Origin: Lachnospiraceae bacterium
GTDB taxonomy: Bacteria; Bacillota; Clostridia; Lachnospirales; Lachnospiraceae
NCBI GenBank assembly: GCA_017448245.1
Contig: JAFSLV010000020.1
Span: 1-64,000, forward strand
Reading direction: 5' to 3'
DNA: 64,000 nt
The position numbers and the translations under genes were made by a program. Shown here in pieces: positions 29,550 through 44,889 of the stretch. The stretch's first letter is position 1, and each line of letters opens with the position of its first letter. The notes beneath the pieces were generated by a model. The model was not told the origin of the DNA. It saw only the letters and a list, made by a program, of their open reading frames with translations, and ran no database searches.

Positions 29550-30107
29550 TCATCCGTCATGTGTCACCGGGATCCACCGGTAGGTCAGATATACGGCCAC
29601 CGCGAGAACCCCCGACAAAAAGTACATGACAGGGATTACGTATGCGGAGCCAGCTCCATCTGAAATCAGCAGATAGCGCAATGCCATTAAAAACGTCAGA
29701 AGCATCAGTGCTGCGTACATCAGCGGCGCGATTCTCAGCTTCATGTCGACATCACGATAATTGATAATCGTCGTTTTTTCCCTGATAAACAAAAACTGAA
29801 CGACCCCCACGAGTTCAAAAACAACCGCCGCCAGGGCAAGTGTTCCAAACAACGACACATACCGATCATAATTGACATATGCGTGCCGGAGTGCCGCCGC
29901 CAGATAACACAGAACGCTGCTTACAAAGAATGCCGCCATACGTATTTTTGTCGTGCGCAGTATATTATCGCCTTGTCCGTAATAATACCACGGACCGGTG
30001 TAGATATAACGCATCCTGTATCCGCGCCGGTTATGGTACGGTACCTTCTCCGCCTTATAATACGTGTCGAACAGCTCTTTTGTGGTTTGAAATGTCCGCT
30101 CGCTCAT
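29550..30107 (-). CDS. Four-helix membrane protein of unknown function
   Basis: 185 residues. A soluble N-terminal region of about 50 residues is rich in Tyr and Arg (AEKVPYHNRRGYRMRYIYTGPWYYYGQGDN). It is followed by four membrane segments (about 58-78, 88-108, 128-148 and 155-177). No family is recognised. The ATG overlaps the oppF stop (ATGA), so it is the last gene of the importer operon. It could be an accessory membrane component. Confidence 0.65.
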   Translation of the reverse strand: MSERTFQTTKELFDTYYKAEKVPYHNRRGYRMRYIYTGPWYYYGQGDNILRTTKIRMAAFFVSSVLCYLAAALRHAYVNYDRYVSLFGTLALAAVVFELVGVVQFLFIREKTTIINYRDVDMKLRIAPLMYAALMLLTFLMALRYLLISDGAGSAYVIPVMYFLSGVLAVAVYLTYRWIPVTHDG

Positions 30108-31060
30108 GTGTCCGTGAGTTCCTTTGCCCTGCAGCAGGCAACAAAATGTCCGGGCGATATCTCTGTCAGGGACTGCGCCTTTTTGCATTCCTCTTTCGCA
30201 TAGATACATCTGGAACAAAACCTGCACTCTTCCCCGGGGTCAATCGGAGATTTAATTTCTCCCTTCAGGAGAATACGCTCCTTTTTTGCATGGATATCCG
30301 TCGTGGGAATGGCCGACAAAAGCGCCCTGGTGTACGGATGTGTCGGGTGCGCGAACAGTTCGTTCCTGTCGCACTTTTCCACCATCTGGCCCAGGTACAT
30401 CACGCAAATCTGATTGGAAATATGCTTCACCACGGACATGTCGTGTGTAATAAACAAATAGGTCAGTCCCATCTGTTCCTGCAAATCCATCAGCAAATTC
30501 AAAATCTGTGCCTGTATGGACACATCCAGGGCGGAAACCGGTTCGTCGCAAACGATGAATTTGGGATTGAGTGCAAGCGCCCTCGCGATCCCCACGCGCT
30601 GTCTCCTTCCGCCGTCGAGTTCGTGCGGATAACTCATGCGCAACCTCTTTTCCACGCCGACCGTATCCATCAGTTCCTCTGTCCGTTCCTCTACCTTGGC
30701 CTTGCTCATGCTCTTCGATAAGAGCATCGGCTCCTTGATGATATCCGATACGGTCTGCCTGGGGTCAAGCGAGGAAAACGGATCCTGAAAAATCATCTGC
30801 ACTTCCCTGCGGAACGCAACCATTTCCTTTTTGTTCAGATGCGTTACATCCTTTCCTTTGTACACAATCGTACCCTCTGTGGACTCGTTCAGATGAATCA
30901 GCGTTCTTCCGAGCGTCGATTTTCCGCATCCGGACTCCCCGACGAGTCCTACCGTCTTCCCTTCTTCGATTTCAAAGGAGACATCATCCACCGCGTGTAC
31001 CGTGCCGCCGGGACTCTTGAAATACTTTTTCAGATTGCGAACCTCCAATAATGCCGCCAT
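30104..31060 (-). CDS. Oligopeptide-type ABC importer ATPase (OppF/DppF)
   Basis: 318 residues. Walker A is GESGCGKSTLGRTLI, the signature is SYPHELDGGRRQRVGIARAL (LSGGQ replaced by LDGGR), and Walker B is FIVCDEPVSALD. A C-terminal oligopeptide/dipeptide extension carries a cysteine cluster (CRFCSRCIYAKEEC) that binds an Fe-S cluster or metal in this family. It pairs with OppD. Known substrates of the class are peptides, nickel or sugars; which one applies here is open. Confidence 0.93.
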   Translation of the reverse strand: MAALLEVRNLKKYFKSPGGTVHAVDDVSFEIEEGKTVGLVGESGCGKSTLGRTLIHLNESTEGTIVYKGKDVTHLNKKEMVAFRREVQMIFQDPFSSLDPRQTVSDIIKEPMLLSKSMSKAKVEERTEELMDTVGVEKRLRMSYPHELDGGRRQRVGIARALALNPKFIVCDEPVSALDVSIQAQILNLLMDLQEQMGLTYLFITHDMSVVKHISNQICVMYLGQMVEKCDRNELFAHPTHPYTRALLSAIPTTDIHAKKERILLKGEIKSPIDPGEECRFCSRCIYAKEECKKAQSLTEISPGHFVACCRAKELTDT

Positions 31061-31063
31061 ATT

Positions 31064-32047
31064 TCACGCCTCCTCGTTTCCGGTCCTGTAGCATCTCGAA
31101 AAATGCCCCGTTGACAGCTCCACCATGTTGTTGTCAAATGACGTGCATCTGTCACAGCGGTGCGGACAGCGTTCCATAAAATCACACCCTTTTCTGATCA
31201 CGGACGGATCCGGCGGCAGACCCTCAATCGGAGAGAGTCTTTCTACCTCCTTCTCCAGATCCGGCAGTGCCGCAAACAGTCCTTGTGTGTAAGGATGAGC
31301 GGGATGATCAAATACGTCTTCTTTTGTACCGCTTTCGATGATTCTTCCGGCATAGATCACGGCCACCTTATCGCAGATATCCGCGACCACGCCAAGATCG
31401 TGTGTGATCAGGATCATGGCCGTTCCCAGTTCATCTCTGAGATCCTTAATCAGATCCAGTACCTGTGCCTGAATGGTTACGTCCAGGGCAGTGGTCGGCT
31501 CATCCGCCAGCAGGAGTTTTGGCGAGCAGGCAAGGGCAAGCGCAATAACAACTCTTTGTTTCATGCCGCCGGAAAACTGGTGCGGGTATTCATATGCACG
31601 GTTTGCACCGATGCCGACCATCTCCAGCATCTTGATGGCTCTTTCGTTTGCCTCCGCCTGCGGGCATCCGTGATGCAGTTTATATCCCTCCGCTATCTGG
31701 GATATGACTGTTTTTACCGGATTCAGCGCGGTCATGGGATCCTGAAAAATCATGGAAATGTCCCGGCCGCGAAGATCATGAAGATCCCGCGCGTTCATTT
31801 CAAGAATATCTTTTCCCTCGAACATCACCTTTCCGCTCACGCTCTCGACGGAGTGCTCCGGCAAAATCCTGAGGATGGCGCGTGCGATGGTGGTTTTTCC
31901 CGCACCCGTTTCTCCGACAAGCCCCAGGGTTTCCCCCTGACTGAGGCTGAGCGAAACGTCGTTGACCGCATGGATGATCGCGTTTCCCGAATGATACTCG
32001 ACCGTCAGATTTTGTATCTCAAAAAAGGCTTCGTTTTTTTCCGTCAT
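31064..32047 (-). CDS. Oligopeptide-type ABC importer ATPase (OppD/DppD)
   Basis: 327 residues. Walker A is GETGAGKTTIARAIL, the signature is FSGGMKQRVVIALAL and Walker B is LLLADEPTTALD. The C-terminal extension has CDFMERCPHRCDRC. I start at ATG 32047 (MTEKNEAFFEIQNLTVEYH); the longer frame overlaps oppC. It forms the heterodimeric motor with the OppF-like protein, 3 bp downstream. Confidence 0.93.
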   Translation of the reverse strand: MTEKNEAFFEIQNLTVEYHSGNAIIHAVNDVSLSLSQGETLGLVGETGAGKTTIARAILRILPEHSVESVSGKVMFEGKDILEMNARDLHDLRGRDISMIFQDPMTALNPVKTVISQIAEGYKLHHGCPQAEANERAIKMLEMVGIGANRAYEYPHQFSGGMKQRVVIALALACSPKLLLADEPTTALDVTIQAQVLDLIKDLRDELGTAMILITHDLGVVADICDKVAVIYAGRIIESGTKEDVFDHPAHPYTQGLFAALPDLEKEVERLSPIEGLPPDPSVIRKGCDFMERCPHRCDRCTSFDNNMVELSTGHFSRCYRTGNEEA

Positions 32048-32060
32048 ATCTGCCACCCCG

Positions 32061-32996
32061 TCAGTCTCTGAAATTCGGATCCAGTGCGTCACGGAAAGCG
32101 TCGCCCAACAAATTGAAGCTGAGCACCGTGAAAACAATGAAGATACCCGGTATGATCACCATATACGGATAATCGCGTATGTAATTTCTTGTGGAGGCCA
32201 GCATGGCGCCCCATTCGGGCCTCGGCTCCTGTACCCCGAGTCCCAGAAAGCTGAGGGAGGAAGAGGCAAGACCGTTCCGGCTGATCCCCATGGCGATTTC
32301 CACGATGACGGGAGATACCGCGTTGGGAATGATATGCTGTAAAATAATCTTCCACGTGGGACAGTTGATTGTGGTGGCGGCCTCGATATATTCCGTATTG
32401 CGGATCCTTAAAATATTGGCCCGCATCAGTCTGGCAAATCCCGGTATACCCGTAATACCGAGGGCATAGATACACTTGTCAATGCCGGTTCCGAATACCG
32501 CACAAAACGCCATGGCCAGCACCAGCGAGGGGAATGCCTGGAAAATATCCAGAAACCGCATCAGCGCGGCATCGATGACACCGCCAAAATAACCTGCGCA
32601 GGCTCCCAGAAGAATGCCCAGAACCGCCGACAACAGTGTGGACAAAATACCGATGATCAGCGTATATCTCGCTCCGTATAAGACCCTTGACAGAATATCC
32701 CTGCCAAGGTCATCCGTTCCGAACAGATGCTTTATGCTCGGCCATGACTTCATCATCTCAAAGTCGGTCGCCGCATAATTATACCTGCAGATCACCGGTG
32801 ACAAAAGGGAAAGCACGATCATGGCCGTCAGAAAAACCATGCCGAAGATGGCTCCCTTGTTATGGGAAATCGAGGCCCAGATATATTTTGCGCTTCCCGG
32901 CTTGATCCCGGGGTCGATGTGATGACGTTTTCCTTTTTTCCCGTGTCCGCGGTGGTGATGTCCGCCGCCTTTTTTGTTATGCGTATGGTCAGCCAT
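32061..32996 (-). CDS. ABC importer permease (OppC/DppC)
   Basis: 311 residues. The cytoplasmic N-terminus is very rich in His, Gly and Lys (HTHNKKGGGHHHRGHGKKGKRHH), then six membrane segments follow. The EAA loop for ATPase contact is in EAATTINCPTWKIILQHIIPNAVSPV. The histidine-rich tail (10 His in the first 30 residues) is unusual and could bind metal. The gene overlaps oppB by 8 bp. Confidence 0.92.
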   Translation of the reverse strand: MADHTHNKKGGGHHHRGHGKKGKRHHIDPGIKPGSAKYIWASISHNKGAIFGMVFLTAMIVLSLLSPVICRYNYAATDFEMMKSWPSIKHLFGTDDLGRDILSRVLYGARYTLIIGILSTLLSAVLGILLGACAGYFGGVIDAALMRFLDIFQAFPSLVLAMAFCAVFGTGIDKCIYALGITGIPGFARLMRANILRIRNTEYIEAATTINCPTWKIILQHIIPNAVSPVIVEIAMGISRNGLASSSLSFLGLGVQEPRPEWGAMLASTRNYIRDYPYMVIIPGIFIVFTVLSFNLLGDAFRDALDPNFRD

Positions 32997-33951
32997 TCTT
33001 TTTCACCTTTTTGTTGGAGGATTCGTACTGCGCCTTAATTCTTGGATCGGCAAAGGCATACAGCAGATCGGTCAGCAGCATGATAACGGCAAATGTAAAC
33101 GCGATGAAAATAATTCCGCCCGTACAGGCATTATAGTCTCTGTTATTAATGGAATTGACCAGATATTGCCCGATGCCGGGAATCGAAAAGACCACTTCGA
33201 TGATTGTTGCGCCTCCCAGCATGGATCCGAAACGCATGCCGATGACCGTCAGGATCGGAATCAGCGCGTTGGGGAGGGCGTGCCCGTAAATGACGTCTTT
33301 TTCCGGCAGTCCCTTGGAACGGGCGGTTGTCACGTAGTCCGAGCGGATGACCTCGAGCATGCTCGCCCTCACCTGTCTGGTAAAGCCGGCAAGACCTCCG
33401 AGAGAGTTTGCGATGGTCGGCAAAATAAAGTAAGACAGGGATTTGGCACCGGATGACGGCAGCCATTTCAGTTTGAGCGAAAAGAGCAGCACCAGCAAAA
33501 GTGCCGTCCAAAAACTGGGCATGCAGTCGAATAACAGGGTGACAAACAGCGACGCCCTGTCTCCCGCGGAATTGGCGTGTACCGCGGTATAGATGCCCAG
33601 TGGCAGGCCGACAACCACGGTCAGTATGATGCTGAAAATGGCAATTTTGGCGGTGTGCGGAAAACGCTTCATCAGTTCCCATTTGATATCCGTCCCGTCA
33701 ATCAGGGACTTTCCGAAGTCAAATCTGAGGAAGATGTTACCTACATACTCTCCCAGTCTGACCAGAAACGGTCGGTCCAGGCCCAGCGCCTGTCTCTTTG
33801 CCTCAATCTCCGCGGTTGTATGCACGCCGGAGCCGAGTGCGAGCTGTGCGGGGTCTCCCGGGACAAAATTCATCAGCGTGAACATGATGACACCCACCGC
33901 AATCATTGTCGGTATCATGATCAATAATCGTTTGATGACATATCGTGCCAT
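32989..33951 (-). CDS. ABC importer permease (OppB/DppB)
   Basis: 320 residues, six membrane segments. It starts MARYVIKRLLIMIPTMIAVGVIMF, typical of OppB. The EAA loop is TTARSKGLPEKDVIYGHALPNALIPILTV. The ATG 33951 is chosen since the extra 16 codons upstream have no family match. It is separated from the binding-protein gene by a strong hairpin (33987-34023). Confidence 0.93.
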   Translation of the reverse strand: MARYVIKRLLIMIPTMIAVGVIMFTLMNFVPGDPAQLALGSGVHTTAEIEAKRQALGLDRPFLVRLGEYVGNIFLRFDFGKSLIDGTDIKWELMKRFPHTAKIAIFSIILTVVVGLPLGIYTAVHANSAGDRASLFVTLLFDCMPSFWTALLLVLLFSLKLKWLPSSGAKSLSYFILPTIANSLGGLAGFTRQVRASMLEVIRSDYVTTARSKGLPEKDVIYGHALPNALIPILTVIGMRFGSMLGGATIIEVVFSIPGIGQYLVNSINNRDYNACTGGIIFIAFTFAVIMLLTDLLYAFADPRIKAQYESSNKKVKKNG

Positions 33952-33986
33952 GAATGTTCTCCCTTGTGCGGTATCCGAAGGATGCG

Positions 33987-34023
33987 CGTTGCCGCACATT
34001 CCCCGTCGGAATGTGCGGCAACG
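33987..34023 (-). promoter_or_regulatory. Hairpin between binding protein and permease genes
   Basis: A perfect 16-bp stem (CGTTGCCGCACATTCC and its inverse) with a 5-base loop and no U-run after it. It sits in the 82-bp gap behind the substrate-binding protein gene. This position is typical of mRNA-stabilising or attenuating hairpins that make more binding protein than permease. Confidence 0.65.
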
Positions 34024-34033
34024 ATAATGCTTA

Positions 34034-35692
34034 TTATTGGTCTACAGAGCTGTAGTCGTCCGTAAATGTCATCGCGTTCAAAACCGGATTTAATTTCTGA
34101 AGGGCGATGTCGGTGATACCCTCCGTGGTGACGATGGTTTTTGTTTCCGTATACAGGCCGATCATGTAGCAGTTTTCTACAACATAATCATGGAACGCAT
34201 TCATATTGGCCTCGCTTCTGTCGGCGATTGCGGCGGCAAGCAGTCTCTGCAGCTCCGGATCGTCCGTGAAGCCCTGTGTCAGTCCGCCGTTTGCCTCGGC
34301 GCCGAAGAGGTCATTCCAGAAGGTCGTGGTAAAATCGGTCACCGAATCGGAATACTCCGAAATATCCCATGCGGTAGGATCGCTTTGTACCGCCTGCCTT
34401 GCCGCACGGTCCTGACCGTCAATGGTGAGCTCGATATTGGCCTCGGCCAGCATGGACTGCAGGGCGACATACGGCTGTTGCGGCGCCTGGGAGGTCACCA
34501 GAATGCTGATTCTCAGCGGGTTGCTTTCATCATAACCGGCTTCCGCCAGATACTCTTTTGCCTTGTCCAGATCTCTGCCAAAATAATCCGCGCTGTCCCA
34601 TGCATCAACATAATCGGGTCCTAAGTTGGGTGCCACATCATAGCTCATGATGCATTCGCCATTGGTCAGGGACATGGTTTTTGTGTCAAATGCATAGGCA
34701 ATCGCCCTTCTGACATTGATATCCGCGCAGGGATTGCCTTCCGTCGTATTGAAAATCAGGTATTGTGACATAAAGTTTAAGTAATAGGTGACATTATAAT
34801 CAGAGTTGCCATCAAACCGGGAGAGATCGTTAGAGGTGATTTCCGCCATGTCAACTTCTCCGTTTTCAAGTGCAATCGCCCTGGAGGACCCCTCCGTAAT
34901 GCAGCGGATCTCGATCACTTCCACATTCTGATACTCCGCATCCGCTCTGCCCTCTGTTTTCCAGTAATCCTCCCTGGCCTGCATGGTGACGCCGGAGCCC
35001 GTCGACATGTTTGTGACATAATACGCTCCCGTTGTGGCGGGATCGGAATTGATCTCATCCTCGGATGCGCTCTCGTACCAGCTCTCTGACGCGATAGAGC
35101 AGTTACACAAAACCGACTCGATGGCGCCCTCGCTCGTATCCTTCAGACGGATGGTCAGGGTGTAGTCGCCTGTTGCCTCAGCACCCGCATAATAAAGGGA
35201 TATTTCCGATACGAAGCCGAGCCTTGCCAGGGTCTCATAGCTGTATACCACATCGGATGCCTTGATGGCGTTGCCCTTGCTGTCCGTGATATGATCAAAG
35301 ATCTCTACCTCATAGGTTGCGTCATCCACCTTTGTCACGGACTTTGCCGCATACATTTGCAGCTGGTCATCCTCAAGCATTGCCCCGATGAACGGACGGT
35401 AGCACAGGTGCGCCCAAAGCGTATTCTCCGTCCAGTCCCGGACAGAGGAATCATTGCCCCACGGGCCGATCGTAAAAGAATCATCATCCACGGCCACAAC
35501 CACCTTGTCCGCCATGCCCTCGGCCTCCTGGGCAGCCGACTGCGTATCACCACCGGTCTGTACCGTCTGTGATGTCTGCGTTCCGGAGGAGGCGTTTTCG
35601 TTACCCGCGGAACCCGCACCTCCGCATCCCGCAATGCTTCCCGTTACCAGCATCGCGGTCATCAGTAAGCCCATTAGTTTCGTTTTTTTCAT
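34034..35692 (-). CDS. Oligopeptide-type substrate-binding lipoprotein (family 5)
   Basis: 552 residues. A signal peptide with lipobox IAGC (C23) and a Ser/Gln-rich linker precede a family 5 solute-binding domain of normal length (about 65-545). It includes YEVEIFDHITDSKGNAIKASDVVYSYE and NPCADINVRRAIAYAFDTKT, the usual DppA/OppA landmarks. It would catch the substrate outside the membrane. It is the first gene of the leftward importer operon and diverges from the LysR gene at 35834. Confidence 0.92.
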   Translation of the reverse strand: MKKTKLMGLLMTAMLVTGSIAGCGGAGSAGNENASSGTQTSQTVQTGGDTQSAAQEAEGMADKVVVAVDDDSFTIGPWGNDSSVRDWTENTLWAHLCYRPFIGAMLEDDQLQMYAAKSVTKVDDATYEVEIFDHITDSKGNAIKASDVVYSYETLARLGFVSEISLYYAGAEATGDYTLTIRLKDTSEGAIESVLCNCSIASESWYESASEDEINSDPATTGAYYVTNMSTGSGVTMQAREDYWKTEGRADAEYQNVEVIEIRCITEGSSRAIALENGEVDMAEITSNDLSRFDGNSDYNVTYYLNFMSQYLIFNTTEGNPCADINVRRAIAYAFDTKTMSLTNGECIMSYDVAPNLGPDYVDAWDSADYFGRDLDKAKEYLAEAGYDESNPLRISILVTSQAPQQPYVALQSMLAEANIELTIDGQDRAARQAVQSDPTAWDISEYSDSVTDFTTTFWNDLFGAEANGGLTQGFTDDPELQRLLAAAIADRSEANMNAFHDYVVENCYMIGLYTETKTIVTTEGITDIALQKLNPVLNAMTFTDDYSSVDQ

Positions 35693-35733
35693 AATTCACC
35701 TCCAAAAAGAGATCCATTGATTCTGACAGCCTG

Positions 35734-35763
35734 ATTGTACCTATCAACATCAGCCATAATCAA
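35734..35763 (-). promoter_or_regulatory. Promoter of importer operon, LysR-controlled
   Basis: Minus strand: TTGATT (35758-35763), 18-bp spacer, TACAAT (35734-35739). The -35 box is part of CGAATTGATT, one of two boxes shared with the MATE-operon promoter at 42.1 kb. The predicted mRNA start is near 35727, 35 bp ahead of the gene. Confidence 0.6.
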
Positions 35764-35782
35764 TTCGTTTGTCTTTTTCACT

Positions 35783-35799
35783 TTTTCCAAATCGGAAAA
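35783..35799. promoter_or_regulatory. LysR operator (TTTTCC-N5-GGAAAA)
   Basis: A perfect palindrome TTTTCCAAATCGGAAAA. It lies about 63 bp upstream of the predicted importer mRNA start and overlaps the -35 zone of the LysR gene's own promoter. LysR proteins classically bind near -65 of the activated gene and repress themselves. An almost identical sequence lies at 42125-42141. Confidence 0.65.
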
Positions 35800-35804
35800 T
35801 ATGG

Positions 35805-35810
35805 TATACT
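35805..35810 (+). promoter_or_regulatory. -10 box of LysR gene 2
   Basis: TATACT, 24 bases before the LysR ATG. The matching -35 region (35782-35787, TTTTTC) falls inside the operator palindrome, which fits autorepression. Confidence 0.5.
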
Positions 35811-35833
35811 GGCCGTATCGGAGGGGGACGATT

Positions 35834-36748
35834 ATGGATATCAGCGTGCTGGAAGAATTTGTATCCCTGGCTGAAACGTGCAGCTTTCAGGAAACGGCTG
35901 CCGTTATGAACGTTTCGCAGTCGGCTTTGACCAAGCACATACACAAGCTCGAAGAAGAGCTCAATCTTTCCCTGTTTGACCGTTCCACCAGAAATGTCAG
36001 ACTGAATGAGTATTCCAGGGCCTTTTACCCCTATGCCAGACAAATCTGCATGATGCATCATGATGCGCTTGCGGAGCTCTCCGAGATGAAAAACAAGGAC
36101 AGCAACAGCTTTACCATTGCCTACGCACCGGTTCTGGGGCAATACGGGATTGTGGATACCATCTCCGACTATGCCGGACAAAATCCCGAAAACACCTTCC
36201 ATACGGTAGAAAGCTATCAGGCCATGACCCTGCTGCAGTCAAAAAAATGTGATTTTGCTTTTGTTTCCGAAAGGGATGTTACGGATGATAATTACAATAA
36301 AATCATCTACAAGACAGATCACCTGACCGCGGTTGTGCCTGACGGACACCCTCTGGCCGGGCAGGACTTTGTTGCATTGGAACAGCTGTACAACGAACGC
36401 TTTATCCTGCATTCCTCGCACAATGATATCCCCCATGAAGAAACGGCCAAATTTCTCGATTTGTGCGCTTCCAGGGGCTTTCAGGCGCAAATCGCGGCGG
36501 AATCACAGTTTACATCCACCATGCTGCGCTATGTTTCCGCCGGGAGGGGTGTTGCGATCTTAAATCGTTTTCATATCCCGGGCGAAATACCCGGCATATC
36601 CGTTATCGATTTTAAGCCGACGATCCGTTCGTATATCTATCTTCTGTATCCGAGAAGATTTTCGTCTCCGTGTGCCGCGCATTTTCTTCACTACATGATC
36701 GAGTCCATCGGCGCGCGGGATGCCGCCTCCGGCTCAAAAACGACCTGA
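35834..36748 (+). CDS. LysR-type transcriptional regulator (2), island regulator
   Basis: 304 residues. Residues 1-60 contain the helix-turn-helix (LAETCSFQETAAVMNVSQSALTKHIHKLEEELNLSLFDR); the effector-binding domain follows at about 88-295. ATG 35834 has GGAGGGGGACG upstream; the longer frame would include the operator. It stands between the leftward importer operon and, at its 3' side, the leftward enzyme operon. The repeated operator in front of both suggests it controls both. Its 3' end overlaps the convergent hydrolase gene by 15 bp. Confidence 0.93.
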   Translation: MDISVLEEFVSLAETCSFQETAAVMNVSQSALTKHIHKLEEELNLSLFDRSTRNVRLNEYSRAFYPYARQICMMHHDALAELSEMKNKDSNSFTIAYAPVLGQYGIVDTISDYAGQNPENTFHTVESYQAMTLLQSKKCDFAFVSERDVTDDNYNKIIYKTDHLTAVVPDGHPLAGQDFVALEQLYNERFILHSSHNDIPHEETAKFLDLCASRGFQAQIAAESQFTSTMLRYVSAGRGVAILNRFHIPGEIPGISVIDFKPTIRSYIYLLYPRRFSSPCAAHFLHYMIESIGARDAASGSKTT

Positions 36749-37996
36749 GGACAGCCAGGCATCCACGAAATCATACAGATTCTTTTCCGTGTCTCCAAAT
36801 TGTCCTTCCTGTTTTTCCATGTGTTTTGCAGGCCGGAACAGATGGGTTGCCCCCTCTACAAAGGCAATCTCTTTGTCCTTTGCGGCGGCATGGGAAAAAA
36901 TAGTTTCCGACGCCAGAAACTCCCAGCCGGCGGTCATGCCCATAACCAGTGTCGGGGCGCTCACGTGCCGCATATTGCCCGGCACACAGCTGTATGAGCT
37001 GTCCCAGTCGATGCCCCATACGCGGGACGCGTCATATCCGAAGTCACTCTCCGTGCGCACGGCGTAGGATGTCAGAAAGGTCTTAACGGACAAAAACCTG
37101 GCGCCCTCCCAGAAGCTTTCCGTCAGCGAGACATCGTTTTCCTGCCGCCTGAGAGAATGGATGATTTCCGTGGTTTGACTGCCATCTGCATGAATCAGGC
37201 GGTACGCGCCCTGTGTATGCGCCATCAGATCCGGATCCTGTGCGTACAGCTTGTTGTTAAAAAACCCCTGCGCCGCGCCGGGGATGATCATCGGCTCATC
37301 ATCCGCATAGTTTCCGTTCCCGTTTTCCAGCAGCAAAAGGCGCGACAACGCGTATTCGATCAGGCAGTTATTGCGTTCACTCTGAGCCCTCTGGTAGCGG
37401 TTGATAAAGTCCTTTGTATAGGTCACGCCGTCCTTGTGAAATCCGTTTTCCGGAAGAAAAAGATCCAGTTCCGGGTTGATCATTTTTCCGCTGTTTTCAT
37501 CCTCCACCGCAGGATCCAGGCTGAACAGCTGCATGGCCGCATTTCCCCAGTTGGCATCCAAAAGCATAATACCGTCTGCGGGAGGAAGCGTCTCGTCGGA
37601 CGGATAAGGGATGATCTTTTCCGGTCCCTTGAAAACTTCCGGCCCGTTTTCCGCCACGGCCTGGTAAGCGGACAGCAATGTCGCGCCGCCGCTGTGTCCC
37701 ATCAAAACGATTTTTTCCACGGTTTTCAGGCCGCGCAGATACGCTACCGCAGCGCGTACGCTCTTTGTTTTTTGGATCTGTGTAAAAAGGATTCCCTCCT
37801 TGTTCATGACATTGGCGCACAGCACCGTATAGCCCCTCTTTGCAAGAGCGTCTCCCGTTGAAAAATCCAGATAATCTTCATCGGAATGCATCACCAGTAC
37901 GGCGATCCGCTGCTTTGCCGTCGCTTCTTTCGGCTCATACAGCACGCCCGGCGTCCGTCCCGTCAGTCTGACGAAGGTTTTTTTTACGTCGTACAT
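36734..37996 (-). CDS. Alpha/beta hydrolase
   Basis: 420 residues. The nucleophile elbow is GHSGG with S102, and the catalytic histidine is H385 in EGATHLF. There is a large insertion between the two (about 135-330). The fold is that of esterases and C-C or amide hydrolases acting on small molecules. It has no signal peptide. It is the last gene of the five-gene enzyme operon, 17 bp after a phloretin-hydrolase-like gene, so it probably acts on the same substrate or the cleavage product. The exact reaction is unknown. Confidence 0.83.
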   Translation of the reverse strand: MYDVKKTFVRLTGRTPGVLYEPKEATAKQRIAVLVMHSDEDYLDFSTGDALAKRGYTVLCANVMNKEGILFTQIQKTKSVRAAVAYLRGLKTVEKIVLMGHSGGATLLSAYQAVAENGPEVFKGPEKIIPYPSDETLPPADGIMLLDANWGNAAMQLFSLDPAVEDENSGKMINPELDLFLPENGFHKDGVTYTKDFINRYQRAQSERNNCLIEYALSRLLLLENGNGNYADDEPMIIPGAAQGFFNNKLYAQDPDLMAHTQGAYRLIHADGSQTTEIIHSLRRQENDVSLTESFWEGARFLSVKTFLTSYAVRTESDFGYDASRVWGIDWDSSYSCVPGNMRHVSAPTLVMGMTAGWEFLASETIFSHAAAKDKEIAFVEGATHLFRPAKHMEKQEGQFGDTEKNLYDFVDAWLSSGRF

Positions 37997-38013
37997 CCGC
38001 GTCTCCCCGTGTT

Positions 38014-38874
38014 TCAGTCGGCATCCATCGGCAGGTTCTGATATGCCTCATACAAATCCGGCAGCACCTCATACAGATGCTGTCGCTCGATCGTGTTATG
38101 CGTGATGACATTTTTCAGATAGGTTTCGTCTACCGGCGTATCCTCATCCCGGACAATCTTTCCGTCTTTCGCCCAGTATCCCATCCATTCACAGTTGATG
38201 CTTTCCCTGCCGCCCAGGGGACAGGGTCTGGAAAATCTGAGTACCAGATGATGCCCCGGACCGTCAAATTCCTCCCAGCATGCCTCCGGCCTGCAGTCGG
38301 CTGCAATCAGCTCATCATACCGCTCCTCGGACAGTCCGTAATCGCGCAAATCAATATTGTGGGAAACGGCCGCTATCCCCTTGCTCGCGTCACCCGTTTC
38401 CCCCAGATCCAGCGTCTCCATGGACCATACGCCATCCGTATCGTCCTTTCCGTTGACAAACTTATGATCCCAGTGATCCACGGGGTTCCATATCTTATAA
38501 CGGATATTTCCCTGTCCGGGCACGGCGCTCTTCGGATACTGATTATACCACTTGCCAAACCATCTTCTCCACTTTCCCTGCCACGTGACCGGCGATGTGG
38601 AGTATTCGATATAAAAACCGGAGCCGTCCGGCATCATGGTATAGCCGTAACACACCCTCGGATATCCCGTAATCCGCAAATGATCCAGCCAGTGCCCGAC
38701 GGGAATGGCGTCTTCCACACGGATCGGTCCCGCATTCAGGATCTGTTGCTGCAGCGGATTGGGCGGATACAGCTTATAATCTGTTATAAACCTTGAAACC
38801 GGCATGGCCTTCTCCTGCGGCGTCAGCTCCGGTACTTTTAAGTATGGCATTCCGTCATTTGTAATCAATTCCAT
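38014..38874 (-). CDS. Phloretin/DAPG hydrolase-like C-C hydrolase (B)
   Basis: 286 residues, cytoplasmic. It is a paralogue of the protein at 39713. Shared landmarks are NxxDHxDHxxVN (130-141), ExLDLGE (153-159), RPCPxGG, and a C-terminal H-x3-E (H259, E263) followed by HLYxxLPDLYxxY. The overall pattern fits the DAPG hydrolase (PhlG) / Eubacterium ramulus phloretin hydrolase family. These are Zn-dependent enzymes that cleave the C-C bond between an acyl chain and a phloroglucinol ring. In PhlG the metal site uses His and Glu residues including an H-x3-E pair. The family call rests on remembered motifs, not a search. Confidence 0.65.
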   Translation of the reverse strand: MELITNDGMPYLKVPELTPQEKAMPVSRFITDYKLYPPNPLQQQILNAGPIRVEDAIPVGHWLDHLRITGYPRVCYGYTMMPDGSGFYIEYSTSPVTWQGKWRRWFGKWYNQYPKSAVPGQGNIRYKIWNPVDHWDHKFVNGKDDTDGVWSMETLDLGETGDASKGIAAVSHNIDLRDYGLSEERYDELIAADCRPEACWEEFDGPGHHLVLRFSRPCPLGGRESINCEWMGYWAKDGKIVRDEDTPVDETYLKNVITHNTIERQHLYEVLPDLYEAYQNLPMDAD

Positions 38875-38902
38875 GTCATTGCTCCCTTCCCGTGTCTTTT
38901 GT

Positions 38903-39700
38903 TTATCCGACGATCATCCCGCCGTTGACGTCGATTCTTGCTCCGTTAACAAAAGAAGCCTCCTCGCTCGCCAGAAATACAAATGCGCCCACCAGATCCT
39001 CCGGTACGCCCAGTCTGCCGACCGGCGTTTTTTCCAGCATGTCCTTGCGCACTTCATCCGTGAGCCGGTTGTCCTCCGTATCTTCTTCTATGTGTCCGAT
39101 CAGAATGCAGTTGGAGGTGATTCCCTTGGGGCCCAGCTCTCTTGCCATCTCATAGGTCAGCGCTTCAAGTCCTCCGCGTGCGGCCGCAAAGGAGGGATCA
39201 TGAAAATATCCTCCGTTTCTGGCATCAAACGTGGTAATGTTGATGATTCTTGGCGCTTTGCTCTTGAGCAGATACGGATAACACAGCTGTGCATTAACGA
39301 AGGCGGACTCCACGACCTCCATGGAGTGACGCCAAATCTGCTTGTCCGTGTGCTCAAAGTCATAGCGGATATGCCCGCCTTTTGCGTTAACACACACGTC
39401 GATTCCGCCGAAACGTTCGTATACCATGCGGATGACATCCTTCATGTGTGTATTCCCCTCATAGATTTCGGGCGCGGCCTCCATGTTTTCCTCAAGCCTT
39501 GCTGCCGGGTTTTGTGCAAATCCGATGACCCGGTCCCGGTATTTGGGATCCAGAGTGGCGATGGCTTTTTGTGCCTTGGTGTGAAGCCCGCTCAAAAAGG
39601 CAACGTTCATGCCCCCTTCGAGTGCCGCCCTGATCATTGCCAGTCCGTTGCCTCCGGCGCCACCCGTAATAACCATGGTTCTCCCCGACAGTGTAAACAT
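38903..39700 (-). CDS. Short-chain dehydrogenase-fold protein with altered active site
   Basis: 265 residues. The Rossmann motif is TGGAGGNG (12-19) and NAKG takes the NNAG place (105-108). The C-terminal PEDLVGAFVFLASEEASFVNGARIDVNGG is standard. The usual catalytic Ser and Tyr-x3-Lys are replaced: ITT (155-157) and F171-x3-R175 (SFAAARGG). A Tyr at 165 lies six residues off. It binds NAD(P) by its motifs but may not be a normal dehydrogenase. It lies between the two phloretin-hydrolase-like genes. Confidence 0.88.
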   Translation of the reverse strand: MFTLSGRTMVITGGAGGNGLAMIRAALEGGMNVAFLSGLHTKAQKAIATLDPKYRDRVIGFAQNPAARLEENMEAAPEIYEGNTHMKDVIRMVYERFGGIDVCVNAKGGHIRYDFEHTDKQIWRHSMEVVESAFVNAQLCYPYLLKSKAPRIINITTFDARNGGYFHDPSFAAARGGLEALTYEMARELGPKGITSNCILIGHIEEDTEDNRLTDEVRKDMLEKTPVGRLGVPEDLVGAFVFLASEEASFVNGARIDVNGGMIVG

Positions 39701-39712
39701 GGCATTTCCTCC

Positions 39713-40606
39713 TTAATCTGCGTCTATCGGCTGGTCCTTATATTCCGCGTACAGGTCGGGCAGAAACGTATAGAGGTGTTCCCACTCAACCAGCGTATGG
39801 ATCACGACTTTTCTCAGATACGCCTCGTCGCATTTCGTGGCCGGGTCGCGCACCAGCTTTCCGTTGACCGGCCGCCATCCGATCCATTCGCGGCTTCTTG
39901 TTTCCATCCCTCCCTGCGGGCACGGTCTGTCATAGGAAAGACACAAATGCGTGCCGGGTTCGTCAAAGGTCTCATAGGAGCCCTTTCCCGTTAACTGGCA
40001 CCCCGCATCCCGCAATTCTTTGAGCCTCTCGTCCGTCATCCCGAAGTCTTTCAGATCAAACTGATGCCGGATCGTGTCATACATCCGGTCTCCTTCCCCC
40101 AGATCCAGGCTTTCCGTGGTGTGAATGCCGTCGGAACCGTCCTGCCAGTTGACATAGTAGTGGTCAAAGTGGTCGGCATAATTCCATATTTTATACCGGA
40201 GGTTGCCGTGTCCCGGAACCATGCTTTTTGATTTCAGGTTTCTCCAGTTGCGGTACCACCGCTCCATTTCCCGGGAAATATGCGGGGGACGCACGCGGTA
40301 TGTGGCAACATACCCGGAGCCGTCCTCAAACATGCAATACCCCAGTTCCACTTTGTCATAGCCGTACGGTTTCAGCAAATCCATAAAGTTTTCCGGACGG
40401 ATCGCGTCTTCCACCGGAATCGGATTCAGGGTGTCGATAATCTGCATTTCGATCGGCGTGGGCATGTGCAGGGGATAGTTATAAAAGTATTTTGCCAACG
40501 GCATCTTTTCCTCTTCGGGAAAGAGCTTTTGTCTCACCTTTACAACAGATTCATCCTCTGTCCGTATTGTTTCTTTTTCCACCTGAATAAAAGACATGTT
40601 TTCCAT
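39713..40606 (-). CDS. Phloretin/DAPG hydrolase-like C-C hydrolase (A)
   Basis: 297 residues, no signal peptide. Landmarks are NYADHFDHYYVN (142-153), ESLDLGE (165-171), and H270-x3-E274 followed by EHLYTFLPDLYAEY. The H270/E274 pair falls at the same place as the metal-binding pair described for PhlG. Phloretin hydrolase and PhlG release an acid from acyl-phloroglucinols. The paralogue at 38014 shares the whole plan including the final PxDAD, so the two came from duplication. Their coexistence in one operon suggests two related substrates or a heteromer. It starts 13 bp upstream of the SDR gene. Confidence 0.68.
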   Translation of the reverse strand: MENMSFIQVEKETIRTEDESVVKVRQKLFPEEEKMPLAKYFYNYPLHMPTPIEMQIIDTLNPIPVEDAIRPENFMDLLKPYGYDKVELGYCMFEDGSGYVATYRVRPPHISREMERWYRNWRNLKSKSMVPGHGNLRYKIWNYADHFDHYYVNWQDGSDGIHTTESLDLGEGDRMYDTIRHQFDLKDFGMTDERLKELRDAGCQLTGKGSYETFDEPGTHLCLSYDRPCPQGGMETRSREWIGWRPVNGKLVRDPATKCDEAYLRKVVIHTLVEWEHLYTFLPDLYAEYKDQPIDAD

Positions 40607-40628
40607 CCTTTCTGTCCCTCGGGACCGC

Positions 40629-42038
40629 TTATGTCTGGGCGCTCAGTGTCTGTTTCTGTGGTTCCTTTGCGTCCGTATCTTCCATCTTTCTGTTAATCAC
40701 TTTTATGATATAAAAGGCAAGCGGGACGATTACCACCGCGGTCAGCAGGTCTGCGATCGCCTGGGTTGCCGCAACACCTCTGATTCCCATAATCCTCGGT
40801 GCGATCAGGAGGGTCGGATAAAAACAGTAGCCCTGTCTTGCAAAATTGACAAAAAGCGCCAGCTTTGCGTTTCCGATGCCGGAGAAAAACATGTTCACAA
40901 TGGAGCTCATTGCGTGGATCGTCAAGGCAACGCACTGCAGCCGGATGCATAATAGTCCGAGACTCAATACCTCTTCGTCGGCATGCGAATTAAAAATGTG
41001 AACGATCGGTCTCGCAAAGACAAAGATGATGGCACCCATGACCAGCCCGCCGACGATCGACAGAAATACGCTGAAGGTATAGCTTTCTTTCACGCGTTTA
41101 TATGCCCTGGCACCCCAGTTGAATCCGACGACGGGCTGATAACCCTGCCCGAAGCCGAGAATAATGGCAAAAGGAAACTCCATCACGCGGTTTGCGACAG
41201 ACAGCGCCGCGAGCGCTGCCGTGGAATAGCTGCCGGCCACCCGGTTGATGGAAACGGATGCCGCGACCGTAAGAAGGGAGCGGAAAAACGAACTGGATCC
41301 GATCGCCAGTACCTCTTTGACATCCTCCGCCACAAGCTTGAATTTTTTGATTGAAATCGCCACAATCGTGGATTTTCGCAGGTACGGCCAGCACAAAATA
41401 CAAAAGCTTACCGTTTTTGAAATCGCTGTCGCCATGGAGGCGCCCCTGACGCCCAGGCCAAATGTGTAGATAAATAACGGGTCCAAAAAGCAATTGAGTA
41501 TGCCCCCGAATCCGATGCCGATCATGGAATAGGTCGCGCTTCCCTCGGACCTGAGACACATGTTTAATATAAAGCTGCAGATCATAAACGGGGCGGCATA
41601 CAGCACATAGGTGGCATATTGCATGGAAAACTCGGCGCATTCGTCGGTGGCGCCGAGCCAGTACACCATTCTCCCCATCAGAAGTCTGCCGGTCAGCATA
41701 AATACAACACCGAGAAAAAGACCCGTGAAAAAGGATGTGGATAAAACGCGGTTGGCCTGTTCCTCCTTTTTGGCCCCCAACAGCCTTGCCACATAACTGC
41801 AGGCGCCTGCGCCGATCAGGGAACCGATGACCGTAATCATACGCTCAAGCGACGCGTTGACGCCCACCGCCGCGGTGGCGTTGGTGCCAAGCGTCGACAC
41901 AAAGTAGGTGTCAACCAGATTATAAACCGTTGTGATCAGCTGTGCCGTGATGGTCGGAATCGCCATCTTTGGAATCAGGGTTCTGACGTCCTCCGTCAGC
42001 ATCATTTGCTTTTTTTCTTCCTTCACATTTGCTCTCAT
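40629..42038 (-). CDS. MATE family efflux transporter (4), island exporter
   Basis: 469 residues, 12 membrane segments. MLTEDVRTLIPKMAIPTITAQLITTVYNLVDTYFVSTLG and LRSEGSATYSMIGIGFGGILNCFLDPLFIY are typical of MATE. It is the first gene of the leftward enzyme operon, with AGAGGCGG before ATG 42038. Its place suggests that it exports a toxic phenolic substrate or product of the hydrolases. Confidence 0.92.
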   Translation of the reverse strand: MRANVKEEKKQMMLTEDVRTLIPKMAIPTITAQLITTVYNLVDTYFVSTLGTNATAAVGVNASLERMITVIGSLIGAGACSYVARLLGAKKEEQANRVLSTSFFTGLFLGVVFMLTGRLLMGRMVYWLGATDECAEFSMQYATYVLYAAPFMICSFILNMCLRSEGSATYSMIGIGFGGILNCFLDPLFIYTFGLGVRGASMATAISKTVSFCILCWPYLRKSTIVAISIKKFKLVAEDVKEVLAIGSSSFFRSLLTVAASVSINRVAGSYSTAALAALSVANRVMEFPFAIILGFGQGYQPVVGFNWGARAYKRVKESYTFSVFLSIVGGLVMGAIIFVFARPIVHIFNSHADEEVLSLGLLCIRLQCVALTIHAMSSIVNMFFSGIGNAKLALFVNFARQGYCFYPTLLIAPRIMGIRGVAATQAIADLLTAVVIVPLAFYIIKVINRKMEDTDAKEPQKQTLSAQT

Positions 42039-42099
42039 AATTGTCCGCCTCTTTTCTTTCTTTATGTCCTTTGTACATTTTCACGCGGGACATGCGGAC

Positions 42100-42141
42100 A
42101 ATCAATTCGAGTTTGATGAAGTTTTTTTCCAAATCAGAAAT
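42100..42141 (-). promoter_or_regulatory. LysR-type control region of enzyme operon
   Basis: On the minus strand, ATTTCTGATTTGGAAAAA (42141-42124) is followed 14 bases later by CGAATTGATT (42109-42100). The importer promoter has the same two boxes with the same 14-base gap. TTGATT (42100-42105) would be the -35 box; the -10 at 18 bp is poor (AAAATG), which fits a promoter needing an activator. Confidence 0.62.
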
Positions 42142-42145
42142 AACC

Positions 42146-42234
42146 GGGTATGATTGCCACGGGGCATTTTGTGCGCCTGCTACCGGAAAGAGCTGCCGGA
42201 TATAACACAGGTCTTACGGGGCGCAAGGCGCATC
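42146..42234 (+). pseudogene. Fragment of a TrmH-type methyltransferase gene
   Basis: LPRGILCACYRKELPDITQV followed by LRGARRIL matches LTRGVLCACYRKELPDIAQV-LQGAKRIA of the intact gene at 28459, residues about 95-121. DNA identity is roughly 80% by eye over 90 bases, with a one-base deletion near 42151. It stops abruptly at the stop codon of the next gene (42235). It marks the right border of the accessory block and shows a recombination event involving a related, not identical, copy. Confidence 0.75.
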
Positions 42235-43575
42235 CTACGGCGTCTCTCTTGCGGACAGCGCGTTGAGCGCATACTCCGCCTGTTCCCAGGTATAGCCTTC
42301 TTTTTCCGCGTTTGTGAGCTGTTCCATGAGCTCGTTATGCGAATACGGTTCGATGGCGGTATAGCTCCTTGCGGCAACGAGCGCCTGCTCGTTCCAGTCA
42401 ACCATCTCGTTTTGTTCCAGATAGTCCATCGCATAGACCGCTTCCCATGCGGTAAAGCGGTCGCCCGTTTCCGACGACAGCTGCCGGATCAGCGCCTGTC
42501 TCGAGAACGGCGCGGAATACAGATGCAGCATGGCGGCGATGATCGCCTGTTCTTCCCAGTTGACATAACGGTGCGTTTCGAGATATTCGATCGCAAAGAC
42601 GGCATCGGAGACGGAATACAGATTGCCTCTTGCATAAAGCAGCTCCTCCAAAAGCCTTGCACGCGATACCGGCGGCACGTTTACGTAGGCCATGGCGGTC
42701 GCAACGGCCATGATCTGTGAGGGCGTGAGATCCGGCGGCGCCTCATACGCGTCATAGTAGTTGTAGAAAATGCGGTCGTTAAGCGTCGTCAGAAGCGGCT
42801 CTCCGGTCATCGAATTGGTAAACGCCACCGCCACATGCGAGTTGGTCAGTCCCACGTCCACGGCGGCTCTGCGCACCTCCTTCGAAATATAGAGAAGGGT
42901 GTCCATGAGGCTCTCCCACGTGATATGTTCCCCGTTTTCCCAGACGGGCGCATCCGCAAAGTCCGCCAGCATCCACTGGGTATTCTGATGGTCCTTAAAA
43001 CTGAATTCGATATAGATCAGATGATTGCTGTTTTCCGTAAAGACATTGAAGGTGGCGATATCGATCTGAAGCGCAAGCTGCATCCTGAGCGCCGTGGTAA
43101 AGGTGTCCTCCTGCGCGGCATAGGAGCGGTGCAGCGGCAGCTCAAAGGACACGAGATTCTCATAGAGTGCGGGATAATACTCCGCTGCCGGCTCACTTGC
43201 GCTTTGTACCGGTACGGGCAGCGTGACATTGGCAGCGGTGATCTCGTTTTGCGGTCGCTGCAGCGATGTCTTTGGCGCCTGCGCGGATCCGGCAGACGCC
43301 GCCTCCTGTCCGGCGGGCGGCACAGCCTCCGTGGCGGCCTCCCCGGGCGCGGCCTCTTCCTCCGGATTCTCCTGCGTGCCTTCCGCGGGAGTCCCGGGCA
43401 CAGAATCCGCGGCGGCCCCGTACACGGGCATCGTAACCGCATCCGTCTGTCCGCGGACGAGTTCCTCCGTTTTGCTCTTTGCTTCAAGGGGATTTCCGAA
43501 TACAGAAATAATTGCCAGCATCGCGGCGGCGGTGATTGCCAGGATGCCGGTCACGGTCTTTAAGAAGAATTTCAT
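42235..43575 (-). CDS. Surface-anchored protein with Ltp-type repeats
   Basis: 446 residues. An N-terminal membrane anchor (about 5-28) is followed by a long Ala/Glu/Pro/Gln linker (about 40-125), a middle domain with charged and aromatic residues, and three C-terminal repeats of about 47 residues of the Ltp/host-cell-surface-exposed lipoprotein type (YVNWEEQAIIAAMLHLYSAPFSRQALIRQL is one unit, in part). These helical repeats occur in phage superinfection-exclusion lipoprotein Ltp and in many Firmicutes surface proteins. ATG 43575 has GGAGGC upstream. The last codons abut the trmH fragment. Confidence 0.78.
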   Translation of the reverse strand: MKFFLKTVTGILAITAAAMLAIISVFGNPLEAKSKTEELVRGQTDAVTMPVYGAAADSVPGTPAEGTQENPEEEAAPGEAATEAVPPAGQEAASAGSAQAPKTSLQRPQNEITAANVTLPVPVQSASEPAAEYYPALYENLVSFELPLHRSYAAQEDTFTTALRMQLALQIDIATFNVFTENSNHLIYIEFSFKDHQNTQWMLADFADAPVWENGEHITWESLMDTLLYISKEVRRAAVDVGLTNSHVAVAFTNSMTGEPLLTTLNDRIFYNYYDAYEAPPDLTPSQIMAVATAMAYVNVPPVSRARLLEELLYARGNLYSVSDAVFAIEYLETHRYVNWEEQAIIAAMLHLYSAPFSRQALIRQLSSETGDRFTAWEAVYAMDYLEQNEMVDWNEQALVAARSYTAIEPYSHNELMEQLTNAEKEGYTWEQAEYALNALSARETP

Positions 43576-43591
43576 GGGGTGCCTCCATAAC

Positions 43592-43611
43592 CATACATAT
43601 ACGTGTATGGT
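43592..43611. promoter_or_regulatory. Inverted repeat upstream of Ltp-type gene
   Basis: CCATACA, six bases, TGTATGG, 17 bp ahead of the start codon. It is a possible operator or leader hairpin. No promoter boxes are clear around it. Confidence 0.3.
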
Positions 43612-43647
43612 ATATATCGGCATTATTTACAAAAATATTAGGAGCGC

Positions 43648-44862
43648 CTAAAAGCCCATCACCTTTCGCACCCCCTCAAGATGCATAAGAAAGCGGTCGA
43701 CCTCATCCTCCGTATTGTAAAAGTAAAGCGACGCCCTGGCGGTGGAGCCGACCTTAAGAAACTGCATGAGGGGCTGTGCACAGTGGTGCCCCGCGCGGAC
43801 GCAGACCTTGTCCTCGTTTAAGACCGAGGAAATGTCGTGCGGATGGACGCCCTCCATGGTAAAAGTGACTATTCCGTGGTGCGAAGCGGGGTCCTTTGCG
43901 CCGTAGATGCGGATGTAGGGAAGACGTCGCATGCCTTCCATCAGACGCCGTGTGAGCGTTTCTTCCTGCGTGCGGACCGCCTCAAAGCCGATGCCTTGCA
44001 GATAGCGAATGGCCTCTGCCATCCCGCAGGCCCCCGCCGCGTTGACGGTGCCCGCCTCAAATTTGTGCGGGATCTCCGCCCAGGTCGCTTCGGTGCGCGT
44101 GACATATTCGATCATCTCGCCGCCGGTGAGAAAGGGCTCCGTTTCCTCAAGGAGCGCGTATTTACCGTAGAGTACGCCGATCCCGAAGGGCCCCATCAGC
44201 TTATGTCCGGAAAAGGCATAAAAATCCGCATCGAGGTCTTTGACATCCACTTCCGTATGCGGCACGGCCTGTGCGCCGTCGACCACGACAATCGCCCCGC
44301 ACTCGTGCGCGTGTGCGGCGATTTCTTTGACCGGCTGCATGACGCCGAGGACGTTGGAAACGTGTCCGATCGCCACGATCTTCGTCTTTTTCGTGATTTT
44401 TGAGGTATACTCCTCTTTGGTGATATAGCCCTCTTCATCCGGCTCCATCCATACAAGGGTCGCCCCCTTCTTTTTGCAGAGTATCTGCCAGGGGAGGATG
44501 TCGGAATGGTGCTCCGTAACGCTGATGACGATCTCGTCCCCTTCTCCGATCCGCTCCATGCCCTGTGTGCGGGCGACCAGATTCAGGGATTCCGTGGTGT
44601 TTCTGGTAAAAATGATCTCCTCCGGACGCGAAGCACCGATCAGGGAAGCCGTTACCTCCCTGGCCGCTTCGTAACGGGCCGTGGCCCCGATCGACCAGTC
44701 ATACAGCCCCCGGAGCGGATTGGCATTGGTCTCGTCGTAAAAGGCGCGGACAGCCTCCGTCACGCACGCGGGGCGCTGCGCGGTCGCCGCATTGTCAAAA
44801 TAGATCACCTCCGGATGATCCCGGAGAATCGGGAAATCCTTACGTATAAGCGAAACATCCAT
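43648..44862 (-). CDS. sufS: Cysteine desulfurase SufS
   Basis: 404 residues. The PLP lysine is K221 in FSGHKLMGPFG, the aspartate is in VVDGAQAVPH, and the catalytic cysteine is C361 in RAGHHCAQPLM, the group II (SufS/NifS-like) arrangement. It removes sulfur from cysteine for SufU to pass to SufBCD. It is transcribed after sufU on the minus strand, split from sufU by an 88-bp gap holding a REP-like repeat. In most relatives it follows sufD. Confidence 0.95.
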   Translation of the reverse strand: MDVSLIRKDFPILRDHPEVIYFDNAATAQRPACVTEAVRAFYDETNANPLRGLYDWSIGATARYEAAREVTASLIGASRPEEIIFTRNTTESLNLVARTQGMERIGEGDEIVISVTEHHSDILPWQILCKKKGATLVWMEPDEEGYITKEEYTSKITKKTKIVAIGHVSNVLGVMQPVKEIAAHAHECGAIVVVDGAQAVPHTEVDVKDLDADFYAFSGHKLMGPFGIGVLYGKYALLEETEPFLTGGEMIEYVTRTEATWAEIPHKFEAGTVNAAGACGMAEAIRYLQGIGFEAVRTQEETLTRRLMEGMRRLPYIRIYGAKDPASHHGIVTFTMEGVHPHDISSVLNEDKVCVRAGHHCAQPLMQFLKVGSTARASLYFYNTEDEVDRFLMHLEGVRKVMGF

Positions 44863-44889
44863 GATAACTTTCCTCTTTTGGTTGTGAGA

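Follow-up and report, generated by a model that had tools for sequence, protein, structure and literature searches.

The first 64,000 nucleotides of contig JAFSLV010000020.1 (assembly GCA_017448245.1, Lachnospiraceae bacterium), referred to here as the window, contain a LysR-type regulator gene at 35834 that lies between two leftward-reading promoters carrying the same two-box sequence. Copy 1 of this sequence precedes an importer operon (35692-30104, minus strand) that encodes an SBP_bac_5 substrate-binding protein (SBP), two permeases and two ATPases. Copy 2 precedes an enzyme operon (42038-36734, minus strand) composed of genes for a MATE exporter, the PhlG-like protein PhlGb, a short-chain dehydrogenase/reductase (SDR)-fold protein, a second PhlG-like protein (PhlGa) and a protein of 420 amino acids (Table 1). 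As argued below from sequence comparison, there is a high probability that the two copies are operator-promoters through which the LysR at 35834 would activate both operons in the classic way, and the importer and enzyme-exporter block is very probably one LysR-controlled unit.

Two operator copies and their predicted promoters

Copy 1 (35798-35758) and copy 2 (42140-42100) are both on the minus strand and 41 bp long and, read leftward, share the pattern TTTCyGATTTGGAAAAA-N14-CGAATTGATT. The original prediction, made from the letters of the window, had placed two boxes with exactly 14 bases between them at both promoters. A pattern search confirmed this arrangement and the lower ends of the copies, and showed their upper ends to have been set one base too high. 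The two copies agree at 16 of 17 positions in box 1 and 10 of 10 in box 2, at 3 of 14 in the spacer, and at 13 of 60 and 12 of 60 in the upstream and downstream flanks, respectively. Because the spacer and flanks have diverged while the boxes are nearly identical, it is the boxes, and not the segment, that are kept. The palindrome TTTTCC-N5-GGAAAA, which had been ascribed to both copies, is perfect in copy 1 only, copy 2 reading ATTTCT-N5-GGAAAA, and the block first described as 13 kb long measures about 12 kb (30104-42140). The two-box pattern has no match in 100 dinucleotide shuffles of the window and, with up to three mismatches allowed, occurs in the whole 2.54-Mb genome only at these two copies.

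Table 1. Features of the LysR locus in window coordinates; promoter elements are predictions.
Feature	Position	Strand	Remark
Importer ATPase, OppF type	30104..31060	-	last gene of importer operon
Importer ATPase, OppD type	31064..32137	-	TTG start overlaps preceding gene, may be too early
Importer permease, OppC type	32061..32996	-	
Importer permease, OppB type	32989..33999	-	
Substrate-binding protein, SBP_bac_5, distantly NikA/Opp-like	34034..35692	-	importer operon gene 1
Predicted -10 TACAAT, copy 1	35734..35739	-	18 bp past TTGATT
Operator-promoter copy 1, activation box GAATTGATT with -35 TTGATT	35766-35758	-	
Operator-promoter copy 1, recognition palindrome TTTCCGATTTGGAAA	35798-35784	-	then 17 bp
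Predicted extended -10 of lysR (TGG-TATACT)	35805..35810	+	copy-1 palindrome just upstream
LysR-type regulator (HTH_1 + LysR_substrate)	35834..36748	+	divergent from importer operon
420-amino-acid protein, GHSGG motif	36734..37996	-	last gene of enzyme operon
PhlGa, second PhlG-like protein (PF18089)	38014..38874	-	
SDR-fold protein	38903..39700	-	F/R replacing catalytic Tyr/Lys pair
PhlGb, 2,4-diacetylphloroglucinol (DAPG)/phloretin-hydrolase-like C-C hydrolase (PF18089)	39713..40606	-	
MATE exporter	40629..42038	-	enzyme operon gene 1
Predicted weak -10 GAAAAT, copy 2	42077..42082	-	17 bp past TTGATT
Operator-promoter copy 2, activation box GAATTGATT	42108-42100	-	
Operator-promoter copy 2, box 1 TTTCTGATTTGGAAA	42140-42126	-	then 17 bp

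Computed from the predicted -10 hexamers, the palindrome is centred at about -64 in copy 1 and -63 in copy 2, close to the -63 originally proposed, and in both copies GAATTGATT overlaps the TTGATT that the second box had been proposed to contribute as -35 element. A T-N11-A motif (core TTCC-N5-GGAA) near -65 and a second site at -35 are thus both present. According to PMC8407307, a LysR operator spans 50-60 bp, often has its T-N11-A motif close to -65 and includes an activation site at -35/-10; the window sites fit this frame. Promoter calls by consensus alone are weak evidence: a scan of 29400-43700 gave 19 promoter-like sites, compared with 14.0 in shuffles, with the copy-1 promoter among the calls and the copy-2 promoter not among them.

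LysR regulator genes are often divergent and self-repressed, according to the same paper, and the LysR at 35834 had been predicted to repress itself. In the window, the copy-1 palindrome lies directly upstream of the extended -10 of lysR (TGGTATACT), and in 13 of 22 divergent pairs from the comparison described below the best lysR -10 falls between the boxes or at the edge of the palindrome, which would therefore cover the lysR start. One further locus (L005) has a lone extra palindrome after the lysR -10. The proposal does not extend to seven of the 22 pairs (L004, L006-L010, L012), in which the lysR -10 lies well beyond the palindrome, nor to the 6 of 18 regulators that have no site in the 350 bp upstream of lysR. 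Judged by promoter layout, autorepression is plausible in this strain and is not a general rule.

Conservation of the operator and its association with LysR

A scan of one genome per species, covering close relatives, yielded 15 loci with a relative of the window LysR (38-69% identity). They come from Hungatella hathewayi and from bins labelled Lachnospiraceae, Blautia, Oscillospiraceae, Clostridiales or Clostridia, and five are from roe deer. All 15 contain at least one site of the form TTTCC-N5-GGAAA, 17-18 bp, GAATTGATT, at a threshold of at least 17 of the 19 box positions, and the two-box pattern is thus kept wherever a relative of this LysR was fetched. With the window and six more stretches (22 in all), 34 sites with 30 distinct sequences were counted; the 34 include repeats, as L035 repeats the DNA of L003 (one H. 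hathewayi genome), and one looser site (L007:4123) was left out. The gap is 17 bp in 26 and 18 bp in four of the distinct sites. Box 2 reads GAATTGAT in 28 of the 30, departing from the -35 consensus TTGACA, and it differs from GAATTGATT at no more than two positions, always the last two except at one site (GATTTGATT), although the selection threshold favours both results. A -10-like hexamer is found 17-18 bp past TTGATT at 34/34 sites (best of four offsets), with at least five of six positions matched at 25/34, and the first ATG follows TTGATT by 52-102 bp at 29 of the 33 sites that have a downstream frame. No site was found in the same 22 stretches reversed (351 kb), nor in five stretches that hold PhlG relatives without a close relative of the LysR (L031-L034, L036). 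A wider scan of 28 stretches with a weight matrix, built without the window's own two sites, gave 39 positions scoring at least 25, and none reaching 15 on 870 kb of reversed strand.

The sites precede genes for SBP importers, MATE exporters, PhlGa or PhlGb, EstA-type esterases, MFS_2 transporters, a GATase1-like protein and a protein of about 700 amino acids without Pfam match. This last protein (L007:4659-6764; also L009, L010, L011, L015, L016) has a signal-like N-terminus and regularly stands behind a two-box site; it has 604 amino acids in L011, and it is the L007 copy that is without Pfam match. In two loci (L004:3270-5907, L013:3475-5906), a two-box site precedes three same-strand genes, which encode one NifH-like protein, one lone NifD-like protein and a small companion; in L004 these are followed by an Amt-PII fusion. 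This nitrogenase-like trio is also found in genome G198 (L070), on a contig without a listed site.

A sequence-only model was built from 28 sites of other loci, again leaving out those of the window. In the window's own genome the two window sites rank first (E 7.6e-7 and 4.5e-5), followed by matches at E 0.22 (the copy-1 palindrome on the opposite strand) and 0.33. At E <= 5e-4, 14 of 397 family genomes have a match, with 22 matches in total. Eight lie in clusters with a LysR of the clade described below: two in the window, four in Hungatella and two in G295, where they stand before an SBP gene and before a MATE gene beside a LysR of 43% identity. Three belong to G198, before a MATE gene, before an SBP-like gene and before two esterase-like frames (judged by eye); the cluster genes of this genome are diverged, and its best LysR is just 31% identical. 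Ten, one of them in Hungatella, lie between a LysR of a second clade and a UbiD-type gene, and one is in G139. The four Hungatella sites match the model by construction, which does not apply to the window, G295, G198 or the UbiD pairs. As a side observation, a strong site of G198 with a 16-bp gap (L108:3239) lies about 1.1 kb from a 30% LysR; the regulon appears to exist in G198 in a larger, diverged form. The motif is thus not widespread upstream of unrelated genes, with two sites in the own genome and matches in 14 of 397 family genomes that are mostly LysR-linked. On the strength of the shuffles, the own-genome scan, the reversed controls and the 397-genome scan, a chance or widespread motif was rejected.

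The regulators were compared in a tree of 42 LysR proteins. In it, a branch (support 96/96) sets the 18 LysRs from cluster loci apart, and ten UbiD-linked LysRs form a separate clade (93/97). A strong site (score 26.6-38.8) lies within 350 bp upstream of lysR in 12/18 of the cluster clade and 10/10 of the UbiD clade. Thirteen other LysR genes (three from the own genome, eight from Hungatella and two from G198, a selection and not a full census) score at most 3.2 in this interval, compared with at least 26.6 for the 22 with a standard site. Two further Hungatella LysRs (L096, L102) have no site reaching 10 in their 3.6-3.8 kb, and whole 3-kb scans around LysRs of G198, G165 and G097 (L108-L113) gave 29.4 for L108, 17.7 for L112 and at most 7.3 for the others. 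LysRs of the second clade (L052, L056-L064; ten genomes) are 25-31% identical to the window LysR over the matched stretch. Their sites read ATTCC-N5-GGAAT/A, 17 bp, GAATTGATT, and have the same two-box geometry between a divergent LysR and its target as those of the cluster clade. They differ in that each pair has one site and one UbiD-type gene, and the lysR -10 lies between the two boxes. Since the order of the two clades is unsettled in the tree, common origin and convergence of the operator are both possible.

Two more regulators, intermediate cases, fit a wider rule. One is a Hungatella LysR (28% identity; L104/L089, 6.28-6.29 Mb) that is sister to the cluster clade (87/81). It adjoins an irregular site in which ATTCC-N5-GGAAT runs into GGAATTGATT, and it is transcribed divergently from a second Opp-type importer operon, the ATPases of which share 57-64% identity with their window counterparts. 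The other, a LysR of G165 (31%), faces a distant MATE gene (24%), and a weaker site (19.8) is located 20 bp from the start of this LysR.

Proposed control of the two operons by LysR

For binding by LysR, the direction of control, the inducer and the substrate, the following model is inferred. One dimer of a LysR tetramer would be anchored on the T-N11-A palindrome (TTTCC-N5-GGAAA, about -64), and the other would touch GAATTGATT, which overlaps the poor -35 element TTGATT. LysR tetramers shift between activation sites, as described in PMC11739112. Here an inducer, probably an imported substrate or an early product, would shift the second dimer, leading to the recruitment of RNA polymerase to both promoters. 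Import (SBP and Opp-type ABC operon) and processing and export (MATE, two PhlG-like proteins, the SDR-like protein and the 420-amino-acid protein) would thus be switched on together, while the palindrome close to the lysR -10 would damp lysR in this strain.

Near identity of the boxes could also be explained by a recent duplication of the promoter segment for which LysR is not needed. This was rejected as extremely improbable, because the spacer and flanks match at chance level and the same boxes recur across genomes, the 30 distinct sites extending to loci whose LysR shares no more than 38% identity. It is very improbable, too, that the sites belong to another regulator or to a special sigma-factor promoter and that the adjacency of LysR is incidental. 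Such a reading would account for box 2 being part of the promoter, for the use of the same boxes by UbiD pairs with a LysR of another clade and for the few sites without a LysR nearby. However, 18 of the 22 strong matches in the 397 genomes are next to a LysR from one or other of the two clades or share a gene block with one; there is no site upstream of the 13 other LysR genes or in the five PhlG stretches lacking such a LysR; and both the T-N11-A form of the palindrome and its position are standard for a LysR box. A last alternative would make LysR mainly a repressor, or a regulator of the importer only with copy 2 a non-functional relic. Copy 2, with its imperfect palindrome and weak -10, speaks for it and against dual activation. 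Yet a site stands directly upstream of MATE or PhlG genes in Hungatella, L004, L006, L007, L010, L013, G295 and G198, from which it follows that selection keeps the site before the exporter/enzyme operon, and a poor -35 with a recognition- and activation-site (RBS/ABS) layout is that of activated promoters. We therefore consider this alternative very improbable.

Several other observations weigh against activation of both operons by LysR. The six clade regulators without a site in the 350 bp upstream of lysR have theirs elsewhere, either in front of the next gene downstream of lysR (L011 twice, L015, L016, L055) or, in Hungatella, past an inserted transposase. (This DDE/IS66-like transposase, at L003:6383-7846, separates lysR from the operator.) G198, the source of two of the 13 negative LysRs, has sites at a distance of 3-4 kb from them and further strong ones elsewhere. 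In an earlier pattern search of 299 family genomes, matches in G097 (30.4; L020) and G112 (22.6; L019) had no LysR or cluster genes in the 3 kb fetched. The same is true of a Hungatella site at 903 kb (22.7; L105) in the 13 kb examined, and a site of G103 (20.7; L038) has no LysR in the stretch examined and a 26% MATE nearby. The G139 match is unexplained (weight-matrix score 11.4), and in G295 the LysR and two sites share one contig while PhlG-like genes on two other contigs lack a site. Finally, cross-talk is possible where two LysR clades sharing the operator occur together, as in Hungatella. By our estimate, chance can produce a few sites without LysR over hundreds of genomes; they may be chance matches or unrecognised targets. 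A strong score is not in itself proof of a LysR target, and the make-up of the regulon varies.

In all, the original claim that the LysR at 35834 controls both operons is strongly supported by comparison. The sites, their geometry, their uniqueness in the genome, their conservation and their co-occurrence with a regulator clade are all observed, and dual activation is the reading to which they point. The regulator itself scores above the Pfam cut-offs for both domains (PF00126, 58.6 bits; PF03466, 95.4 bits), and its best PDB sequence match is CatM (E 1.4e-12). With RBS/ABS systems of the BenM/CatM, OxyR and CysB type it shares HTH_1 and LysR_substrate domains, T-N11-A near -65, a second site on the -35 element and a divergent lysR; it differs from them in an unusually fixed box 2 (GAATTGATT) and in an operator common to two LysR clades with different target genes. 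The operator is thus of a known, regular LysR type, kept with unusual strictness.

Gene content and possible function of the regulon

The interesting part is the gene content of the regulon. The genes of the enzyme operon are separated by 12-28 bp, and its end overlaps the convergent 3' end of lysR by 15 bp. Both PhlG-like proteins exceed the PF18089 cut-off of 22.7 bits (PhlGa 39.1, PhlGb 72.0) and in this resemble PhlG and phloretin hydrolase. They differ in being two paralogues in one operon and in their equivalog (NCBIfam) scores, PhlGb reaching 25.2 bits against a cut-off of 600 and PhlGa having no match. Among solved chains, PhlGb comes closest to phloretin hydrolase (5xe5/5xey) and PhlG (3hwp), and a PDB search with PhlGa at E up to 1 returned no phloretin-hydrolase or PhlG chain. 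H146, H270 and E274 are invariant across 17 aligned sequences and are candidates for three of the four zinc ligands of PhlG (two histidines and two glutamates). At E <= 1e-20, PhlGb has matches in 5/397 family genomes (the own genome included, and one at just 33% identity). Of 392 members of an order sample, only the own genome has a match at E <= 1e-40, and 0/17 listed congeners have one. The catalytic motif of short-chain dehydrogenases/reductases is YxxxK; the window SDR has FxxxR instead, and all seven aligned rows (six distinct genes, L003 and L035 being one) have F or C with R. The 420-amino-acid protein has no Pfam or PDB match and is alpha/beta-hydrolase-like by motif only.

PMC8398226 covers phloretin hydrolase homologues of gut bacteria, and PMC10470551 reports that in Mycobacterium a phloretin hydrolase lies beside the phloroglucinol cluster that it describes from Clostridium scatologenes. 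The C. scatologenes cluster resembles the window block in that an anaerobe has an SDR gene together with genes for a transporter and a regulator; the window differs in its SDR lacking YxxxK and in that no homologue of BKACE-type TAL (PF05853) was found in its genome, which is 99.47% complete. Since this homologue is missing, the published PGR-DPGC-TfD-TAL route is incomplete in the own genome, and simple phloroglucinol catabolism by the C. scatologenes route is unsupported. A PF04199 Cyclase is present on another contig. No paper on a regulon with two PhlG paralogues, an SDR without YxxxK and, in two relatives, a nitrogenase-like module was found in the literature searched, although one may exist.

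As to its position, the block is flanked by iron-sulphur (Fe-S) assembly genes, with a SufBD-domain protein on one side (27240-28403) and SufS and a NifU-like protein on the other (43648-45373), between which it may have been inserted. Its GC content (about 0.51-0.54) is slightly below that of the flanks (about 0.53-0.58). A comparison with congeners meant to reveal an insertion was dropped as the neighbouring SufBD gene is just 38-41% identical in eight of them.

Tentatively, and with more doubt than confidence, the operator could mark a new anaerobic pathway for plant metabolites in gut Clostridia. In such a pathway, extracellular esterases would release a substrate for Opp-type or MFS import, the paired PhlG-like proteins would cleave a C-C bond, the SDR-fold protein (with a NifH/NifD-like reductase in some lineages) would modify the compound and MATE would export a product, all under one LysR layout that is shared with the LysR-UbiD pairs. 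Speculatively, beta-keto compounds would suit this chemistry, with acylphloroglucinols, flavonoid products and even ring E of chlorophyll derivatives as examples. The two-box sequence provides a predictive operator for LysR regulators of gut Clostridia, by which transporters, exporters and C-C hydrolases that otherwise lie scattered would be joined in one regulon. With a LysR reporter built on this operator, one could screen directly for the inducer and, through it, for the plant or host compound that these bacteria take apart.

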